Below, in pieces: positions 111 through 7,455 of a stretch of DNA of 64,000 nt. The first letter of the stretch is position 1; the number at the start of each line of letters is the position of its first letter. Below the pieces are notes generated by a model. That model ran no database searches, was not told the DNA's origin, and saw only the letters and a program-made list of their open reading frames with translations. Source of the stretch: Xanthomonas hyacinthi (GTDB taxonomy: Bacteria > Pseudomonadota > Gammaproteobacteria > Xanthomonadales > Xanthomonadaceae). The position numbers and the translations under genes were made by a program. The DNA is taken from assembly GCF_009769165.1 (NCBI RefSeq), contig NZ_CP043476.1, positions 124,001 through 188,000 of the forward strand, in the 5' to 3' direction.

Positions 111-626
111 TCAGCCATCGGACGGCGCGGACTTGACAACGCGGACGGTGGACAGCACGTCGGCCGACTGCTCCTCGTTCATATCGGAGGGGTGGTGCTT
201 CTGTCGGGGCGGCACCTCGACGCCCTTCTTTCGCATGTCGTTCGCATACCAGCGTACCGACTTGGCCGTCGCGTGTGCGCCATCCACCTGCGCGTTGACC
301 ATCGCAGCAATGAGCGCGTGAGGATGGCCCACAGGGTCCATCAGGATCGCGCGTGCGAGCGCGCCGATACCCTTGCCATGGGGCTTCTTCTCGGTCGCCT
401 CGGGCGTCTCGGTGACCTCGGCCCGAGGCTGTGCGCGCTGTTCGGCTGTCTTGGGCTTCTTCGGCTGCCCGAACGAGGCGAGGTCAATGTTCTTGTCGGC
501 CGCGACTTGCTCGATCCGCGCGACGAGCTTGGCCCGGGTCGCGAACGTCTTGGGACCCGCCGGCTTATCGGCGATCCGGTTGTGCAGGGCCAGCAGGTCC
601 TTGGTGGGCATATCGTCCAGCTTCAT
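111..626 (-). CDS. hypothetical island protein, 171 aa
   Basis: I do not recognise this gene with certainty. The start at 626 is supported by AGGAG ten bases upstream, and the gene ends just before a good terminator. The first 50 residues look like a compact charged helical domain (KDLLALHNRIADKP). A Lys/Glu/Pro-rich linker follows at about residues 55-85. The C-terminal part (about 90-150) is a second predicted helical domain that includes AHATAKSVRWYANDMRKKG. The layout resembles small plasmid- or ICE-borne proteins with a DNA-binding-like C-terminus, but that is only an impression. It is a single-gene unit pointing away from the toxin-antitoxin module to its right. Confidence 0.65.
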   Translation of the reverse strand: MKLDDMPTKDLLALHNRIADKPAGPKTFATRAKLVARIEQVAADKNIDLASFGQPKKPKTAEQRAQPRAEVTETPEATEKKPHGKGIGALARAILMDPVGHPHALIAAMVNAQVDGAHATAKSVRWYANDMRKKGVEVPPRQKHHPSDMNEEQSADVLSTVRVVKSAPSDG

Positions 627-707
627 GGCGTTCTCCTACATGTTGGTGGGCACGTAGGCATTAGGTCGCGATTCCCTTGATCCGGGAGCCTGCCCTCCGG
701 CTAAATC

Positions 708-766
708 TCCCAAATTGGGATATTGACATCTCACTAGCACTCAGGGATGATCCTCCCAAAATGGGA
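708..766 (+). promoter_or_regulatory. promoter with twin operators for the higBA-like module
   Basis: Two near-identical 13-bp inverted repeats, TCCCAAATTGGGA (708-720) and TCCCAAAATGGGA (754-766), flank a promoter. The -35 is TTGACA at 723-728 and, after 17 bp, the -10 is GATGAT at 746-751. The operator centres are 46 bp apart and the second ends three bases before the toxin ATG. Autoregulation by the HTH domain of the downstream antitoxin, as known for HigA and other Xre antitoxins, is the obvious reading. Transcription would start about 10 nt before the ATG, so the mRNA would be nearly leaderless. Confidence 0.7.
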
Positions 767-768
767 AC

Positions 769-1047
769 ATGAACATGCGGCTACTGGGACGAAAACGGCT
801 AGACCGCCTGCGAGGCAGGAGCGAACAGGTCGAAAAATGGGTGCGCAGTTGGGCGACCGAGGTACTCGGTGCTCACTGGAAGCAACCATCGGACGTGCGT
901 GATCAGTTTCCGAATGCTCGCCATCAAGGCGAGGGCGTCTTCATGTTCCCTGTGGGCAACTGCAATTGGGTGATTTGTTTGCTCATCGCCTTTCCCCAAG
1001 GCGTTGCCCTCATTACGGATTTGAAGGTCGAAGATGAAAACAATTGA
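769..1047 (+). CDS. higB: HigB-like toxin (RelE superfamily mRNA interferase)
   Basis: This 92-residue protein matches the HigB pattern of an early basic helix, then a W-K-x-P-x-D-V-x-D-x-FP-A segment (residues about 37-50), then a beta-strand core (VFMFPVGNCNWVICLLIAF, about 57-75). Known family members are ribosome-dependent mRNA endonucleases. Placing the toxin before the antitoxin is the hallmark of higBA, and the toxin overlaps the next gene by 14 bp. The C-terminus (ITDLKVEDENN) departs from the usual THxEYD ending, so activity is uncertain. A second ATG lies at 775. No strong ribosome binding site is visible because operator 2 occupies that position. Confidence 0.7.
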   Translation: MNMRLLGRKRLDRLRGRSEQVEKWVRSWATEVLGAHWKQPSDVRDQFPNARHQGEGVFMFPVGNCNWVICLLIAFPQGVALITDLKVEDENN

Positions 1048-2263
1048 ACAACCCAGAGTTATCCGTACGAGGGAACAGTACGACGCGTACCTAGATGAGG
1101 TCCAATCGTTGATGGCGCAAGGCCTCTCGTTGAGTACGAGCGAGAGCGACAGGCTCGAACTTCTCACGGTCTTGCTGGAGGCATACGAAAACACGAAATA
1201 CCCGGTGGAAAGCCCCGACCCGATTGACGCAATTCTGTTTCGGATGCACGAGAAGGGGTTGAAGCAGGCAGACCTTATTCCCTACTTCGGGACGAGCAGT
1301 CGAGTATCGGAGGTGCTCCGTCGTAAGCGGCCGCTAACAGTCCAGATGATTCGAGCGCTGTCCATCGGGTTGGGCTTGTCGGCCGACACCTTGATTGGGT
1401 TATCGGTCGCCGACGACGCACCGAAGAAGGACGAGGTTGATTGGTCCAAGTTCCCGATCAAGGAGATGGCCAAGCGGGGCTGGTTGGAGAGCTTTGCGAC
1501 TAATACGAAGGCTGCTGTCGAAGACGTGGTGAGGGGCTTCATATCTGACGCTGGGCTGCACTTCGGCACGGCATCTTTTAAACGAACGATTGCGGGAGAG
1601 GCGCAGTCGCCTACCACGCAGTACGCACTTTACGCTTGGTTAGCCCGTGTTATTCAAACGTCCAGGGATAAGAAGTCCAAGCTCGGTCGATTTGACCAGG
1701 GCACACTGAATGCCGGTTTTTTGAAGGAGTTGGCGCAACTCAGCTGGTCCGAGCGCGGACCACTACTCGCGATCGAGTACCTCGAGAAGCATGGAATTGC
1801 CGTGGTCATCGAGCCACATCTGAAGGGCACGCTGCTGGATGGAGCGGCACTGAAGGATGCTGATGGCACACCTATCGTTGGGCTAACGCTCCGACACGAT
1901 CGCTTGGACAATTTCTGGTTCACCCTTCTCCACGAAGTCGCGCACCTGTGGAAGCACGTCAGCGATCAAGATGCGTTTCTGGATGATCTGGATGCCTCCT
2001 CGGAAGACCGCCGAGAGGCAGAGGCCAATCGTCTAGCACGTGAGGCGTTCATTCCGCGGCTGATCTGGAAGAGAAGCGACGCGTTCATTTCGCCAGGGAA
2101 AGAGTCTATTGATCGACTTTCCCGAGAATTGAAGATCCATCCAGCCATCATCGCCGGCAGGCTGCGTAAGGAAACCGGCAACTATCACCTGTTCAGCGAT
2201 CTTATTGGTCATAACCAGGTAAGAGCGATGTTCCACCAGTCAATTGTCGATAGCGAGGCCTGA
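1034..2263 (+). CDS. HigA-type antitoxin fused to an ImmA/IrrE-like zinc metallopeptidase
   Basis: The first ~125 residues are a recognisable HigA antitoxin: an acidic N-terminal region, PDPIDAILFRMHEKGL, then an Xre helix-turn-helix (SSRVSEVLRRKRPLTVQMIR). A linker leads to an ImmA/IrrE-type domain in which HEVAH at residues 300-304 is the HExxH zinc-binding motif, with a downstream acidic segment (SSEDRREAEANRLAREAF) that supplies the usual third ligand. Free HigA is ~100 aa; this protein is 409 aa. ImmA-type peptidases are known to cleave cognate Xre repressors on stress, so an in-cis regulator-protease is likely by inference. The gene overlaps higB by 14 bp. Confidence 0.85.
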   Translation: MKTIEQPRVIRTREQYDAYLDEVQSLMAQGLSLSTSESDRLELLTVLLEAYENTKYPVESPDPIDAILFRMHEKGLKQADLIPYFGTSSRVSEVLRRKRPLTVQMIRALSIGLGLSADTLIGLSVADDAPKKDEVDWSKFPIKEMAKRGWLESFATNTKAAVEDVVRGFISDAGLHFGTASFKRTIAGEAQSPTTQYALYAWLARVIQTSRDKKSKLGRFDQGTLNAGFLKELAQLSWSERGPLLAIEYLEKHGIAVVIEPHLKGTLLDGAALKDADGTPIVGLTLRHDRLDNFWFTLLHEVAHLWKHVSDQDAFLDDLDASSEDRREAEANRLAREAFIPRLIWKRSDAFISPGKESIDRLSRELKIHPAIIAGRLRKETGNYHLFSDLIGHNQVRAMFHQSIVDSEA

Positions 2264-2264
2264 G

Positions 2265-3392
2265 ATGACCGCCAACTACGTTCCGATCTACAAAGCGAAG
2301 CTTGGTGAATTCCAAGCCCTTGCTAAAGCAAAGAAAGCCCATGATCGCCGGACCTTGCCGCTCTTCGAAGTGTGCAGGATCGGGGAGGGAGTGCGGAAAG
2401 CCGCACGATTCAAGAATTGCAGTGCACTGACCTGCGCCTACTTGGATGAAACCGCTCAGCGCATTGCTGAAGTACGCAGCGGGAGGAGTGTCTTGGTGGA
2501 TGCCTTCCAATGGCACCCGGATTCGCTCACCGAAACTGGCGAACACGTACTCCCGTACATCTACTCTAAGCTCGAATCGATGGACGTAAATGTCGTGCCC
2601 GTCGTTGGATACGATCGATGGGATAGCGCCACTTACCGAATTGCAATGCAAGGCGTCGAGGTTTCCGAGGATGGCTATTACTGCATGCGGCTCGACTCGC
2701 ATGCCCTCGAAGATGCAGAAGACCCGGAGTTCTTTGAGGAACGCGTGCTCGGTATCCTTGATGACTTGAACATTGAGCCGGAACGCTGTGCCGTGCTGCT
2801 CGATTTCGGGGATGTAACTTCCCTGTCTATCGAAGATATGACGAATCAGGCGGATCGAGTGATGCAGGTCCTCGCGCCGATGAGATTCAGATTCTTTTCC
2901 ACCGCAGGATGCTCACTTCCGCCGAGTATCGATAAGGCGGTAAAGAAGCAAGATTCAACGGGAAAGGTCATCCGGAAGGAAATGCTCCTTTGGCAGGCAA
3001 TGCGTGTTACCTATCCGCATTTGAGGTTGCTTTTCGGTGATTACGGCGTTCGTGGTCCCAATACGGTCGAAGATGTGATTTCTCCACACACGAACGGAAA
3101 AATTCGGCACACGATAGGCCAGAGCTACTACATCGTGCGGGGCCACTCTGTGCAACAGCCTGGCAAGGGTGCACAGATGTATAAGCTAGCGAAGACCATC
3201 GTGGACTCCGTCCACTACATGGGCGAGGACTTCAGTTGGGGAGACGCGCGGATTCTGGCCTGTAGCCAGGAAGAGTTCAAAGGCAATCCCACGGATTGGA
3301 TCGCTATTGATACTAGTCACCATATGGCATGGGTGGTTGCAGAAGTTGAAGAGTTCGAGCTGAAGGTGACCGCTTCGGGTGTAAGTGCCTGA
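2265..3392 (+). CDS. beta family protein (T4 beta-protein-like)
   Basis: A 375-residue soluble protein whose N-terminus (NYVPIYKAKLGEFQAL) and central acidic barrel-like segments (VVPVVGYDRWDS, CAVLLDFGDV) fit the 'beta family protein' annotation, named after a phage T4 protein. Its biochemical function is unknown to me. ATG 2265 is one base past the antitoxin stop, so the two genes are almost certainly co-transcribed; an in-frame TTG at 2244 is less likely. Proteins of this family occur in genomic islands and prophages. Linkage to a peptidase-antitoxin suggests an effector or sensor in a defence module, which is inference. GC is lower than in the core genome to the right. Confidence 0.6.
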   Translation: MTANYVPIYKAKLGEFQALAKAKKAHDRRTLPLFEVCRIGEGVRKAARFKNCSALTCAYLDETAQRIAEVRSGRSVLVDAFQWHPDSLTETGEHVLPYIYSKLESMDVNVVPVVGYDRWDSATYRIAMQGVEVSEDGYYCMRLDSHALEDAEDPEFFEERVLGILDDLNIEPERCAVLLDFGDVTSLSIEDMTNQADRVMQVLAPMRFRFFSTAGCSLPPSIDKAVKKQDSTGKVIRKEMLLWQAMRVTYPHLRLLFGDYGVRGPNTVEDVISPHTNGKIRHTIGQSYYIVRGHSVQQPGKGAQMYKLAKTIVDSVHYMGEDFSWGDARILACSQEEFKGNPTDWIAIDTSHHMAWVVAEVEEFELKVTASGVSA

Positions 3393-3427
3393 GCGGGACT
3401 TTTCTAAAGACGATTTAGGAGACGATC

Positions 3428-3676
3428 ATGGGTAAGAACACGAAACAAACATCTAATCGCGTTGGAACTCTTGCTTCCGAGACCCTTCAGGACAAGCAGG
3501 CTTCTCAGGTGGCAAAGAGCCTTGCGGCATCGGCACTCGCGCAAAGAAGCGGCGCCAAGCAAACTGGTGCGCATATGGAGGATATTGCGTCCAAGGTGCT
3601 CCAAAGCGAGAAGTATTCCGATGCGACCAAGGAGCTAGCCGCATCTGTTCTGTCGCAATCCAACAAGGCGCGTTGA
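3428..3676 (+). CDS. 82-aa protein with two helical repeats, linked to the beta protein
   Basis: A ribosome binding site AGGAG at 3417-3421 sits 6 nt before the ATG, 35 nt after the beta-protein stop. The protein has no membrane segment. Residues 15-39 and 53-77 are two copies of one ~25-residue unit, (L/I)AS-x2-LQ-x4-S-x3-K-x-LAAS-x-L-(A/S)Q, joined by a short Gly/Lys/Gln linker. Such Ala/Ser/Lys-rich amphipathic repeats suggest a helical hairpin that binds a partner. I know of no named function. Its position as the last gene of the operon suggests it is a small accessory or regulator of the beta protein. Confidence 0.65.
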   Translation: MGKNTKQTSNRVGTLASETLQDKQASQVAKSLAASALAQRSGAKQTGAHMEDIASKVLQSEKYSDATKELAASVLSQSNKAR

Positions 3677-3800
3677 AACCTTCTAAACGCCGATAAGGCA
3701 GCCGGGGTGGCCTGAGCCCATGAAAAAGAAGGGGATGCCCTTGGGACATCTGAACCGCCCCGGGAATTCCGGAGGCTCCATTTCTTGAGAAGATGGAGCC

Positions 3801-4124
3801 ATGAGCAGAGCAAGCAAGTTCTCCCCGGAAATCCGGGAACGTTCGGTGAAGATGGTCCTGGAGCACCAATGCGAGTACGAATCGCAATGGGCGGCGATGG
3901 TGTCGGTGTCGGCCAAGGTGGGCTGCACGGCCGAGACGCTACGGGGTTGGGTGAGGCAGCACGAGCGCGACGTTGGCAAGCGCGACGGGATGACGACCCC
4001 CGAGAAGGAGCGCATCAAGGCACTTGAGCGCGAGGTTCGCGAGCTGCGCCAGGTCAACGAGATCCTGCGCAAGGCATCGGCGTATTTTGCGCAGGCGGAG
4101 CTCGACCGCCCCTTCAAGCGATGA
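3801..4124 (+). CDS. IS3-family transposase OrfA (DNA-binding subunit)
   Basis: 107 residues. An N-terminal helix-turn-helix of the IS3/IS911 type (KFSPEIRERSVKMVLEH, then AAMVSVSAKVGCTAETLRGW) is followed by a leucine-zipper-like segment (IKALEREVRELRQVNEILRK) near residues 75-95. It binds the element's inverted repeats and forms OrfAB with the downstream frame. The stop overlaps the ATG of orfB (ATGA at 4121-4124). The frame is intact. Confidence 0.9.
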   Translation: MSRASKFSPEIRERSVKMVLEHQCEYESQWAAMVSVSAKVGCTAETLRGWVRQHERDVGKRDGMTTPEKERIKALEREVRELRQVNEILRKASAYFAQAELDRPFKR

Positions 4125-5049
4125 AGCAGTTCATCGATGAGCATCGAGTCGTCCACGGGGTCGAGCCGATCTGCAGGGTGCTGCCGATCTCCCCGTCGAC
4201 CTACCACGCGCACGCGGCCAGGCTGGCCGATCCCGCGTTGCGCTGCGCGCGCGCGAAGACCGATGAGGCGTTGATGCCGGAAGTCCAGCGCGTGTGGGAC
4301 GACAACTTCAAGGTCTACGGTGTGCGCAAGGTCTGGCGGCAGATGCGACGCGAGCAGTTCGACGTGGCGCGATGCACCGTACAGCGGCTGATGAAGCGGC
4401 AGGGTTTGCGGGGCGTCATTCGAGGCAAGACCGTGCGAACGACGGTGAGCGATCCGAAGGCGCCGTGTCCGCTCGATCATGTGAATCGGCAATTCAAGGC
4501 CGATCGGCCGAACGCGCTGTGGGTCAGCGACTTCACCTACGTCTCGACGTGGCAAGGATGGGTTTACGTCGCCTTCGTCATCGACGTCTTCGCCCGTCGC
4601 ATCGTGGGCTGGAAGGCGTCGTCCTCGATGCAGACAGACTTCGTGCTCGACGCGCTCGAACAGGCGCTTTACGCGAGGCAGCCGGTCGGCCCGGATCGCC
4701 TGATTCACCACAGCGACCGAGGCGTTCAGTACGTGTCGATCCGCTACACGGAGCGGCTCGCTGAGGCCGGCCTGGAGCCCTCGGTAGGCAGCGTGGGGGA
4801 CTCCTATGAGCGCGAAGCCTGCCCTCGGGGCACAACGCGCTGGCCGAGACCATCAACGGCCTCTACAAGGCCGAGGTCATCCATCGCAGGTCGTCCTGGC
4901 GAACGCGCGAGGAGGTCGAGTGGGCCACGCTCACCTGGGTCGACTGGTTCAACAACCGCCGATTGCTGGAGCCGATTGGGAATATCCCGCCGACCGAGGC
5001 GGAGGCCAACTACTATTCGCACTCCCCTGAGTCCGTCATGTCGGCGTGA
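4121..5049 (+). pseudogene. IS3-family transposase OrfB, frameshifted by a 23-bp insertion
   Basis: The DDE integrase core is visible: ALWVSDFTYV (first Asp, about residue 134), then HHSDRGVQYVS (second Asp). The catalytic Glu region should continue from GDSY into DNALAETINGLYKAEV. Here 23 extra bases after GDSY (about 4,809-4,831) shift the frame. The correct C-terminus, starting NALAETINGLYKAEV and ending PESVMSA at 5049, survives in another frame. The intact product would be about 300 aa. The element is therefore probably unable to move itself. Confidence 0.85.
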
Positions 5050-5088
5050 CTCAAACCAAGGGGCCTCCGGAAAACCCGGGGCGGTTCA

Positions 5089-5556
5089 GTTTGCGTAATC
5101 GACACTGCGCCCACGCATGACATTCGCATGAAGTCGGCCATCATCAGCGCAGATTTCCTCGTTGCACCAACGCAGCTTGCACAAGAGGCTATCGACGGAA
5201 TCCGCTTCCTGGTGCAGAGCGTGACCCTTGCCAAAGGCTCCTTGAATCCGAACCTGACCTTCATCGGAATTTTGCCGAACCAGGTCATGGATACCCCGTT
5301 CCACAAAGAGAACTTGGCAATCATCGTTCAGCACTTCGCCAAGCTGCTCATTGCCTTGCCATCAGGTGGCTTTGCACTGATTCGCCGTACTACGGCCATA
5401 GAGGAATCCCAGGCCGAAGGTGTGCCGATCTGGAAACACGGCAAAACCAGCGCCCGCGATGCGTGGCGCAAGATTGAACCCAGCTTCGCCCATATCGCCG
5501 CAACGATGGGTGTCCTCAACAGCCAGGCACAAGGAGTTAATCATCATGGCAATTGA
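5089..5556 (+). pseudogene. parA: parA, 5'-truncated partition ATPase
   Basis: The reading frame enters directly from the IS end with VCVIDTAPTHDIR, the Walker B-like segment of a ParA ATPase. It continues through SADFLVAPTQLAQEAIDGI and SLNPNLTFIGILPN to the stop at 5556. The N-terminal third with the deviant Walker A (KGGxGKT) motif is absent, so no ATPase can be made; an internal ATG at 5128 could at most give a 142-residue fragment. The stop overlaps the parB start region, the usual parAB arrangement on plasmids and integrative elements. Its loss would cripple active segregation of an excised circle. Confidence 0.85.
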
Positions 5557-6346
5557 CCTGACCGCTTTGGACTTCGCGCAGAGCGCGCTTTCCGATGCTG
5601 CTAAGCCAACTGCAAAGCCGGATGGCAAAGCGGTTGAATTCAACACCGCCGACATACGCGAAGACCCCGACCAGCCGCGCAGGGAGTTCGACCAGGCTGC
5701 ACTTGAAGAACTGGCCGCAGACATTCGCCAGCGCGGTGTTTCGACGCCGATTTCTCTCCGGTCAGACCCGGAGGCGGCAGGTCGCTACATCATCAACCAC
5801 GGTCACCGTCGCTATCGGGCGTCGATTCTCGCCGGGAAGACCACCATCCCTGCACACATCGCCGACGCGCACGACCCCTACGGTCAGATGACCGAAAACA
5901 TGCAGCGCGAGGACATGAAGCCGCATGAAATCGCGGAGTTCATCAAAAAGCGCCGTGCGCTGGGAGAGAGCAATTCGTTCATTGCCAAGGGCCTGGGAAA
6001 GCCGCCGCGCTACATCACGGAGCATTTGGCGCTGGTGGACATGCCCGAACCACTGGCCACGGCCTATGCCGCCGGCAAGTCAACGTCACCCACGACCCAC
6101 TACTACTTGCGGAACCTCTACGAGAAGCACCCTGACCAGGTGGCGACCTGGGTGAGCGATCAGTTGGAGATTACCCGCAAGTCGGTTGACGACCTGGCCA
6201 ACGAACTCGGCGGCAAGAGCAACAAGGCGAAGCCAGAAGCGGCAGCACCGAAAGCACCCGATTCTTTACGCGTTGGCATCGACAGCGAACGCGGCAACCA
6301 AGGCAAAGCAGTTCAGCCGGCGAAGCCTGCTGGCGAGGCCGGTGCA
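5546..6346 (+). pseudogene. parB: parB/korB, N-terminal part, interrupted by an IS
   Basis: Starts at ATG 5546 (AAGGAG 10 nt upstream), overlapping the end of parA. Residues about 30-120 are the ParB/Srx domain with EDPDQPRREFD, the arginine-rich NHGHRRYRAS (the CTPase/DNA-spreading box) and TENMQREDMKPHEIAEFI. Residues about 135-200 form the helix-turn-helix that binds the centromere-like site (AKGLGKPPRYITEHLALVD). A Lys/Ala/Pro linker then runs into the second IS3-family element at about 6,347. The missing C-terminal dimerisation domain lies at 7,989-8,273 beyond the element. Read-through into the IS adds about a dozen unrelated residues. Confidence 0.85.
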
Positions 6347-6369
6347 TGTCAAGATAGTTGTCGCCTGAT

Positions 6370-7455
6370 TCATGCGGCTTCTTGAGTTTCAGTGGCTGCC
6401 GCGACGGCGGCCTCCTTCTCCGGATTCAACGCGACGGCAGTGATGCGCTCCCAGTTCCGGGTTCGACCGCTCCAGCGTGCCGGGTTGGCCTGACGTGCTT
6501 GCTGGTACAGCCCATGACGGGCCTGGAGGATGGCCAGGTCCTGTCCGGCGTGCCGCTGCTCGGGGCTGACATAGCCGATGCTGCTGTGGCGATGCTCGAC
6601 GTTGTACCAACGTACGAAGTTCGCTGCCCATTGGCGCGCGCCGTCGAGGTCGGCAAAGCCGGTGGCCGGGAACTCGGGGCGGTACTTGGCGGTGCGGAAC
6701 AGCGATTCGACGAAGGCATTGTCGTCGCTCACGCGCGGGCGCGAGTACGACGGCTTGATGCCCAGCCAGTACAGCATCGCCAGCACGGTGGTGGCCTTGA
6801 ACGAGGCGCCGTTGTCGCCGTGTAAGACCGGGCGGTGTGCGGGATCCTGAAGCACGATGTTCTCGGCCAGCGCCGTGCGCCTGACCAGGTGCGTGGCATG
6901 TTCTGCCCCATCGCTGTCGTGCACCTCCCAACCGATGATCTTGCGGCTGTACAGATCCATGATCAGGAACAGGTGGAACCAGCGACCTGCCACCTCGGCC
7001 GGCAAGTAGGTCATGTCCCAGCACCAGACCTGGCCCGGCGCCGTGGCGATATGCGTGCTCGGCGCCCGGCTGGGGCGCGGGGCGCGAGCACGGCCGCGGC
7101 GGGCGTTCTGGCCGTATTCGCGCAGGATGCGGGCAAAGCTCGATTCGCTGGCGATGTCGCGGCCTTCGTCGGCCAGCATCGGCACGATGCGCGCCGATGG
7201 CATGTCGGCAAAACGCGGTTCGTTGGCGACGTTCAGCACTTGAGCACGCTCGTCCTCGGTCAACGCATGCGCTGGGCGCTTTCGTACCGCGTGTGGACGT
7301 CGATCGCCAGTGACCAGACTGTCATTGGACCTCCATCGTTGCAGGCTGCGGACATCGATGCCGGCAATGCGACAGGCCTGTCCCAGCCGGGCACCATCAC
7401 GGGGGGCTTGTTCGATGTCGGCCACCAGGCTTTGACGATCTTCCAGAACGATCAT
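6370..7455 (-). CDS. IS3-family transposase OrfB (DDE integrase core)
   Basis: Starting at ATG 7455 (MIVLEDRQSLVADIEQA) the protein has 361 residues, normal for the family. A helical HTH_21-like region (PSARIVPMLADEGRDIASES) precedes the rve core. The catalytic triad is visible as CWDMTYLPAEVAGRW (Asp), LHGDNGASFKATT (Asp) and SDDNAFVESLFRTAKYRPEF (Glu). The C-terminus (HRHSSIGYVSPEQRHAGQD) is typical. This frame is intact, so OrfB could be made by reinitiation from the overlapping orfA stop. Confidence 0.9.
   Translation of the reverse strand: MIVLEDRQSLVADIEQAPRDGARLGQACRIAGIDVRSLQRWRSNDSLVTGDRRPHAVRKRPAHALTEDERAQVLNVANEPRFADMPSARIVPMLADEGRDIASESSFARILREYGQNARRGRARAPRPSRAPSTHIATAPGQVWCWDMTYLPAEVAGRWFHLFLIMDLYSRKIIGWEVHDSDGAEHATHLVRRTALAENIVLQDPAHRPVLHGDNGASFKATTVLAMLYWLGIKPSYSRPRVSDDNAFVESLFRTAKYRPEFPATGFADLDGARQWAANFVRWYNVEHRHSSIGYVSPEQRHAGQDLAILQARHGLYQQARQANPARWSGRTRNWERITAVALNPEKEAAVAAATETQEAA

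Follow-up and report, generated by a model that had tools for sequence, protein, structure and literature searches.

Does a four-gene cluster in Xanthomonas hyacinthi represent a new kind of defence system, and which of its genes encodes the harmful protein? The cluster lies at the left end of the window, the whole stretch of 64,000 nucleotides analysed here (contig NZ_CP043476.1, positions 124,001 to 188,000 of the forward strand). Its genes are designated A (HigB-like), B (HigA-type helix-turn-helix, HTH, with a HExxH peptidase), C (Beta protein) and D (82 aa). The initial annotation, made from the sequence alone, had proposed a candidate undescribed defence module in which the antitoxin cleaves itself and frees HigB. 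Our analysis points to another answer. On sequence comparison, A-B-C is a copy of the named anti-phage system PD-λ-2, and we consider it fairly probable that this module, carried on a mobile element, is an inverted toxin–antitoxin system.

Comparison with the PADLOC models, as the initial annotation had suggested, returned a named system for the first three genes: PD-Lambda-2_A for A (E 6.4e-35, residues 3-86 on model positions 1-84 of 87), PD-Lambda-2_B for B (E 9.3e-190, residues 6-402 on 3-398 of 402) and PD-Lambda-2_C for C (E 5.8e-163, residues 1-371 on 1-371 of 377). All other named matches of these proteins were far weaker. An undescribed system is therefore ruled out, and the full PD-λ-2 match supports the assignment of the genes to a defence-type module. 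PD-λ-2 came out of a functional selection in E. coli published in 2022 (Vassallo et al., PMC9519451). The accessible text of that report gives its genes as a HigB-like gene first, a gene for a HigA-type HTH fused to a peptidase, and a third gene related to a P4 phage antitoxin; the text describes B as toxic alone and rescued by A, C as required to stop λvir and dispensable for neutralisation, and the defence as abortive. In a survey of 5426 E. coli genomes, made by DNA search with the related locus L015, eight were matched, and in five of these a single place accounted for at least 80% of the query. The three loci opened (strains C, MRE162 UK and PS2Canimalfeces3) each carried A-B-C near an integrase gene, without D. 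The window locus shares with PD-λ-2 the same three genes, their adjacency, order and direction, and the domain set, with near full-length model matches; it differs in its fourth gene, D, which the opened E. coli loci do not have. By analogy with the E. coli system, the Xanthomonas module may act against phages from its seat on a mobile element. The core A-B-C is a new member of an already known kind, and the points of interest are the reading of swapped roles and gene D.

Analysis of A showed that the conserved C-terminal end of the HigB family is missing. Pfam assigned A to HigB_toxin (PF09907, E 1.4e-6), with a match covering positions 3-63 of 74 only. In this family, ordinary HigBs terminate with a TH..Y stretch (for example GTHAEYD), and E. 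coli K-12 HigB in the PDB has THKEYD. The motif was found in 9/9 HigBs beside ordinary or peptidase-fused HigA, taken from other loci, versus 0/32 PD-λ-2-type A proteins. These 32 comprise the window protein, 24 database homologues and the A of seven loci; the 24 homologues, retrieved with window A as the query, are 57-92% identical to it and hence not independent, and for four of the seven loci the figure is 37-49%. The A proteins of viral contigs L183 and L184 also lacked the motif. Pfam alignments gave the same picture, as seven A proteins (the window's and six others) stop at 62-65 of the 74 positions and four ordinary HigBs reach 73. A PDB sequence search with A gave a best E of 0.079, to unrelated names. 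A appears to be a catalytically dead HigB.

In B, both the HigA-type HTH and the peptidase motif are retained. The antitoxin-like gene does carry the C-terminal HExxH peptidase that had been noticed from the sequence: HEVAH occurs at residues 300-304, and Pfam matched Peptidase_M78 at residues 251-342 (E 4.2e-9). HExxH was conserved in 25/25 B sequences compared. B also matched PHROG families (E down to 1.6e-28), one of them named transcriptional regulator, and residues 59-122 aligned to E. coli HigA in the PDB (5ycl) with a weak E of 0.023. Of the two hallmarks of a HigBA system with an RNase toxin, a HigA-type HTH downstream of a HigB-like gene is therefore present, on a weak PDB match and the PHROG matches, and an intact C-terminal TH..Y region is absent from window A. 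A viral-contig search with B gave no confirmed match.

The state of A was associated with the presence of C. Among loci with B and C, TH..Y was absent in 8/9, versus present in 12/16 of those without C (Fisher p 0.0036; 25 usable of 28 loci with B, relatedness ignored). These counts omit L062 (a near copy of L060), L017 (at a contig edge, A not seen) and L150 (A missed by the script). In a maximum-likelihood tree of 25 B sequences, which includes L150 and omits L148 (B spread over two frames), L017 and L062, the nine C-bearing loci grouped together with support of 99/93. L155, which has both C and the motif, fell outside the other eight (support 100/99). For L023, L149 and L151 the B match starts at residue 35-38. 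This arrangement would fit an order in which an active HigB beside a HigA-peptidase came first, Beta was then gained and the HigB end was lost last; the order is tentative, as L155 sits on a long branch with a deviating composition and midpoint rooting served only to draw the tree. Fusions of HigA and peptidase beside a motif-bearing HigB, with no Beta found, occur in L018-L021, L146, L149, L151 and L156-L160. These loci are candidates for an older mechanism, a peptidase-controlled antitoxin.

Since B keeps HExxH and is reported to be toxic, a swapped pair is favoured, with A as inhibitor and B as effector; the conservation of HExxH, the motif data and the B toxicity given in the accessible part of the E. 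coli report are its basis. A, a dead HigB, would be retained as a binding partner that holds B inactive, and might co-repress at two operators. Infection would be sensed through C, leading to the release of B, which would then harm the cell, most simply by its peptidase, so that infection is aborted. D would tune the module or travel along with it, and would be needed for no step.

The mechanism of the initial annotation runs the other way: on stress or phage attack, the peptidase of B would sever the HTH antitoxin portion of the same protein, and the HigB so released (A) would act as an mRNA-cleaving toxin. The genes are ordered and the domains fused as in HigBA, and a similar idea exists for COG2856-Xre fusions beside RelE or PIN toxins, for which Makarova 2009 (PMC2701414) proposed possible cleavage of the toxin's antitoxin by the Xre-linked peptidase. 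Those fusions resemble the window locus in pairing an Xre-peptidase fusion with a RelE-superfamily gene in one operon and in the three-component toxin–antitoxin idea. They differ in being a prediction only, with no Beta mentioned in the accessible text and a RelE-type toxin assumed, whereas the window counterpart looks dead. Self-cleavage may hold in sister loci with a motif-bearing HigB (those 12/16 without C, and L155 with C). For the window locus we judge it improbable and set A aside as the freed toxin, given its missing C-terminal motif. Because A lacks TH..Y, and because in the E. coli homologue B is toxic alone and A neutralises it (PMC9519451, accessible text), this mechanism is probably backwards.

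Several points nevertheless weigh against the swap of roles. The eight motif-less C-bearing loci are one clade and may record a single event. L155 has C and still has the motif, and as a long branch of unlike composition its placement is unsure. L022, L023, L147 and L148, without C, are also without the motif, so motif loss does not require C. The catalytic role of TH..Y is taken from conservation of the motif and is thus putative. The toxicity of B is most simply ascribed to the peptidase rather than to the HTH, and phage defence by the window copy would follow by extension from the E. coli homologue.

C matched Beta_protein (PF14350, E 1.4e-73) in Pfam and is predicted, with high confidence, to be a TIM-barrel-like protein. 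Conserved charged residues are present, several at the strand ends of the predicted model. A Foldseek search with this model gave one match at E <=0.001, with a TM-score of only 0.27; the TIM-barrel call draws on second-look structure alignments and the strand-helix pattern, and names no enzyme. Among the second-look alignments only rank 1 was named a TIM barrel, and the other enzymes there are, we take it, TIM barrels as well. A PDB sequence search with C found no match. We propose that C is a sensor or licensing enzyme. The initial annotation had cast the Beta protein and its small partner together as a second effector or sensor; a role for Beta agrees with its requirement for defence in E. 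coli, as given in the accessible text of PMC9519451, and the partner, D, is absent from the three E. coli loci. A second Beta architecture was seen among plasmid matches, in which Beta immediately follows other Xre-ImmA proteins and the match also spans a 'sce7726 family' gene.

Is D then a true component? It matched PHROG 5079 (E 3.2e-22, in two stretches along a model of 49 positions), and nothing above cut-off was found in Pfam, NCBIfam or PADLOC. Homologues of D numbered 784, of which 120 were listed. When D was divided by eye, its two halves aligned with a score that none of 2000 shuffles attained, and D is, as far as its sequence tells, two copies of one helical repeat, in agreement with its first description as an 82-aa repeat protein. 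It was predicted as a four-helix model (pLDDT 71). A fold search gave 0 matches at E <=0.001; the match to UPF0147 (2qsb) had a probability of 0.84 but an E of 1.2.

A four-gene version of PD-λ-2, in which D is a true fourth component and C and D form the sensor or a second effector, we regard as rather unlikely. The position of D would suit it: D follows C after 35 bases, with its own Shine-Dalgarno-like AGGAGA and a G+C content as low as that of A-C. In the Castellaniella locus (L002), where A-C are 89-90% identical and open, remnants of D lie directly after C, in two frames and with the second half missing, so that D is broken there while A-C stay open. Comparison of source contigs between the 120 C and 120 D homologues listed gave eight of equal size (null mean 0.70, maximum 4, in 112 shifts); A and C, a known operon pair, shared 14/24 source-contig sizes. 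Although equal size does not prove a shared contig, recurrence of D next to Beta is probable on some metagenomic contigs. However, seven other PD-λ-2-type loci (L011, L012, L015, L155, L060, L061 and L184) showed no D after C, with only 332 and 386 bases available there in L015 and L155; L016, L183 and L003 end too early to be judged. Together with the broken copy in L002, this rules out D as an obligatory partner. In viral contigs, 48 loci with D were scanned for A, B and C alone and contained none of the three, against the idea of a fixed four-gene set, and the E. coli experiments were done with a three-gene system (PMC9519451, accessible text). D does not appear to be a fixed part of PD-λ-2.

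The neighbourhoods of other D genes include defence genes of several kinds. In L106, D lies ~25 bases after the SAVED effector gene of a cyclic oligonucleotide-based anti-phage signalling system (CBASS) and before JetA, and on a Pseudoalteromonas plasmid it lies 24 bases after a SAVED gene. Specificity genes of type I restriction-modification (RM) systems occur some hundreds of bases from D in L121, and also in L120 and L123, where D was recognised by profile only. QatC is one gene away from D in L124, B-like Xre-peptidases lie near D in L022/L112, L029/L115 and L006/L124, and the annotated plasmid neighbours of D include TIR genes. Other opened D loci, for example L044 and L059, had no recognised defence gene. 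The records opened were 12/63 from plasmids, chosen for diversity, and 4/11 from phages.

Counts over these neighbourhoods were suggestive of enrichment. The 150 open frames around 20 D loci (the 18 best places besides the window's own, and two from another search) gave 317 PADLOC model matches at E 1e-10, many of them to redundant type I RM models, and 107 control frames gave 7; the control frames came from 18/20 control stretches at arbitrary places, rather than from matched accessory regions, and genes were called as longest frames only. In L120, L122, L123 and L125, D was identified by profile only (tblastn E 3.9, none, none and 0.033). When 20 D neighbours from 15 loci were scanned singly, a PADLOC match at E 1e-5 occurred in 8 loci, one of them weak (L116) and one to TniQ (L107); the neighbours tested in L109, L110, L111, L113, L114, L115 and L117 had no PADLOC match at that level. 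D might be a portable accessory with one common job in unrelated defence systems, the PD-λ-2 copy joining a role-swapped module, a possibility we hold to be on the unlikely side. Such a job could be, for example, restraining a toxic effector or blocking phage counter-defence, with temperate phages carrying single-repeat versions. Single-repeat forms of D were seen near cro, repressor or antirepressor genes in Streptococcus and Staphylococcus temperate phages (L045, L046, L047). In L022/L112, a motif-less HigB and a HigA-peptidase are followed by D, with no Beta, and adjoin a frame resembling DNA adenine methylase (by eye).

The layout of the locus is given in Table 1. All four reading frames are intact and co-directional (92, 409, 375 and 82 aa), and the tight packing first described was confirmed, with a 14-base overlap between A and B, a 1-base gap between B and C and a 35-base gap between C and D. 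The promoter-like sequence upstream of A was the sole sigma-70-like match in positions 600-3900, where 1.3 would be expected by chance. It is flanked by two perfect 13-base palindromes, TCCCAAAWTGGGA, of which 100 resamples of the window contained a mean of 0.0. Comparable operator pairs were found by eye upstream of A in L002, L016, L015, L060 and L061; L011 and L012 came without upstream sequence. Of the one autoregulated promoter initially described, the single promoter for all four genes is plausible and autoregulation of the module likely, short of proof. The G+C contents of A-D (0.535-0.551) are far below that of the window (0.654), for which reason the four genes look to have been acquired together.

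Table 1. Coordinates of the PD-λ-2 module and its putative control elements in the window
Feature	Position	Strand	Basis
Operator palindrome 1, TCCCAAATTGGGA	708..720	.	Exact palindrome; partner copy at 754; similar pairs in relatives
Sigma-70-like promoter, TTGACA-17-GATGAT	723..751	+	10/12 matches; between the operators
Operator palindrome 2, TCCCAAAATGGGA	754..766	.	Same type as the palindrome at 708
A, PD-λ-2_A, HigB-like without C-terminal TH..Y; proposed neutraliser of B	769..1047	+	PADLOC, Pfam, motif test
B, PD-λ-2_B, HigA-type HTH and M78/ImmA peptidase; proposed effector and repressor	1034..2263	+	PADLOC, Pfam, PDB, PHROG
HExxH zinc-peptidase motif of B (HEVAH)	1931..1945	+	B residues 300-304
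C, PD-λ-2_C, Beta protein (PF14350) with a predicted TIM-barrel-like fold; putative sensor or licensing enzyme	2265..3392	+	
D, 82-aa two-repeat helical protein, PHROG 5079 family, accessory	3428..3676	+	PHROG match, predicted four-helix model

A-D appear to be part of a conjugative element. The 10 kb left of the window (L182) contain genes for VirB8 and a TraG/VirD4 coupling protein. To the right of the module, a piece at 5128-5556 with a weak, below-cut-off AAA_31 (ParA-type) match is followed by a ParB/KorB partition gene at 5546-6385. An IS3-type insertion sequence at 3750-5089 stands directly after D, with HTH_Tnp_1 and rve genes and 40-base inverted ends that are 83% complementary. The plasmid-type maintenance genes at 5128-6385 lie in a 4.9-Mb contig. 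The conjugation and partition genes nearby, and the toxin–antitoxin-like gene order, would also suit a plain addiction module that stabilises the element and has no phage role in its host. We consider this very unlikely, as the genes fully match a system whose E. coli version stops λvir and in which, in the accessible text of PMC9519451, C is required for defence and not for neutralisation.

An inverted pair of this kind can be set beside other known systems. The window locus resembles HigBA in that A is in the HigB family, B has a HigA-type HTH, the toxin-like gene comes first and palindromic operators surround the promoter; it differs in the absence of TH..Y from window A, which 9/9 ordinary HigBs have, in the added M78 peptidase of B and in the added Beta gene. 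C is a distant relative of the Beta family of satellite P4 (PADLOC 'beta' model, E 5.3e-6), where gop-beta-cII protects against λ and P1 and Beta is likely the antitoxin to Gop (PMC9122126). Protection against λ and P1 there parallels that of PD-λ-2 against λvir, whereas PD-λ-2 C, in the accessible E. coli account, is not needed to neutralise. No gop or cII names occurred among the PADLOC matches of five proteins, the library not having been checked for those models. HigBAC and CmdTAC likewise combine a toxin–antitoxin pair with a third gene tying it to phage infection; in the window module, however, the third gene encodes a Beta protein and there is no SecB-like chaperone, as Pfam at E up to 1 gave no SecB-like match in C (PF14350 alone) or D.

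In the open literature, nothing was found in print on a role swap in PD-λ-2, or on an ImmA/Xre metalloprotease tied jointly to defence, toxin–antitoxin function and phage. The toxicity of the antitoxin-like PD-λ-2 gene was called unexpected by Vassallo et al. (PMC9519451, accessible text). If the swap of roles is true, this toxicity would be accounted for by a HigB that is missing the conserved end, in a clade that apparently acquired Beta beforehand: A would be harmless and bind B, the B peptidase would be the weapon, and a toxin–antitoxin pair would have swapped roles en route to phage defence. The TIM-barrel-like model of C would offer residues to mutate in the Beta family, including the P4 antitoxin Beta. 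If D is shared across systems, it would represent a new kind of cross-system accessory.

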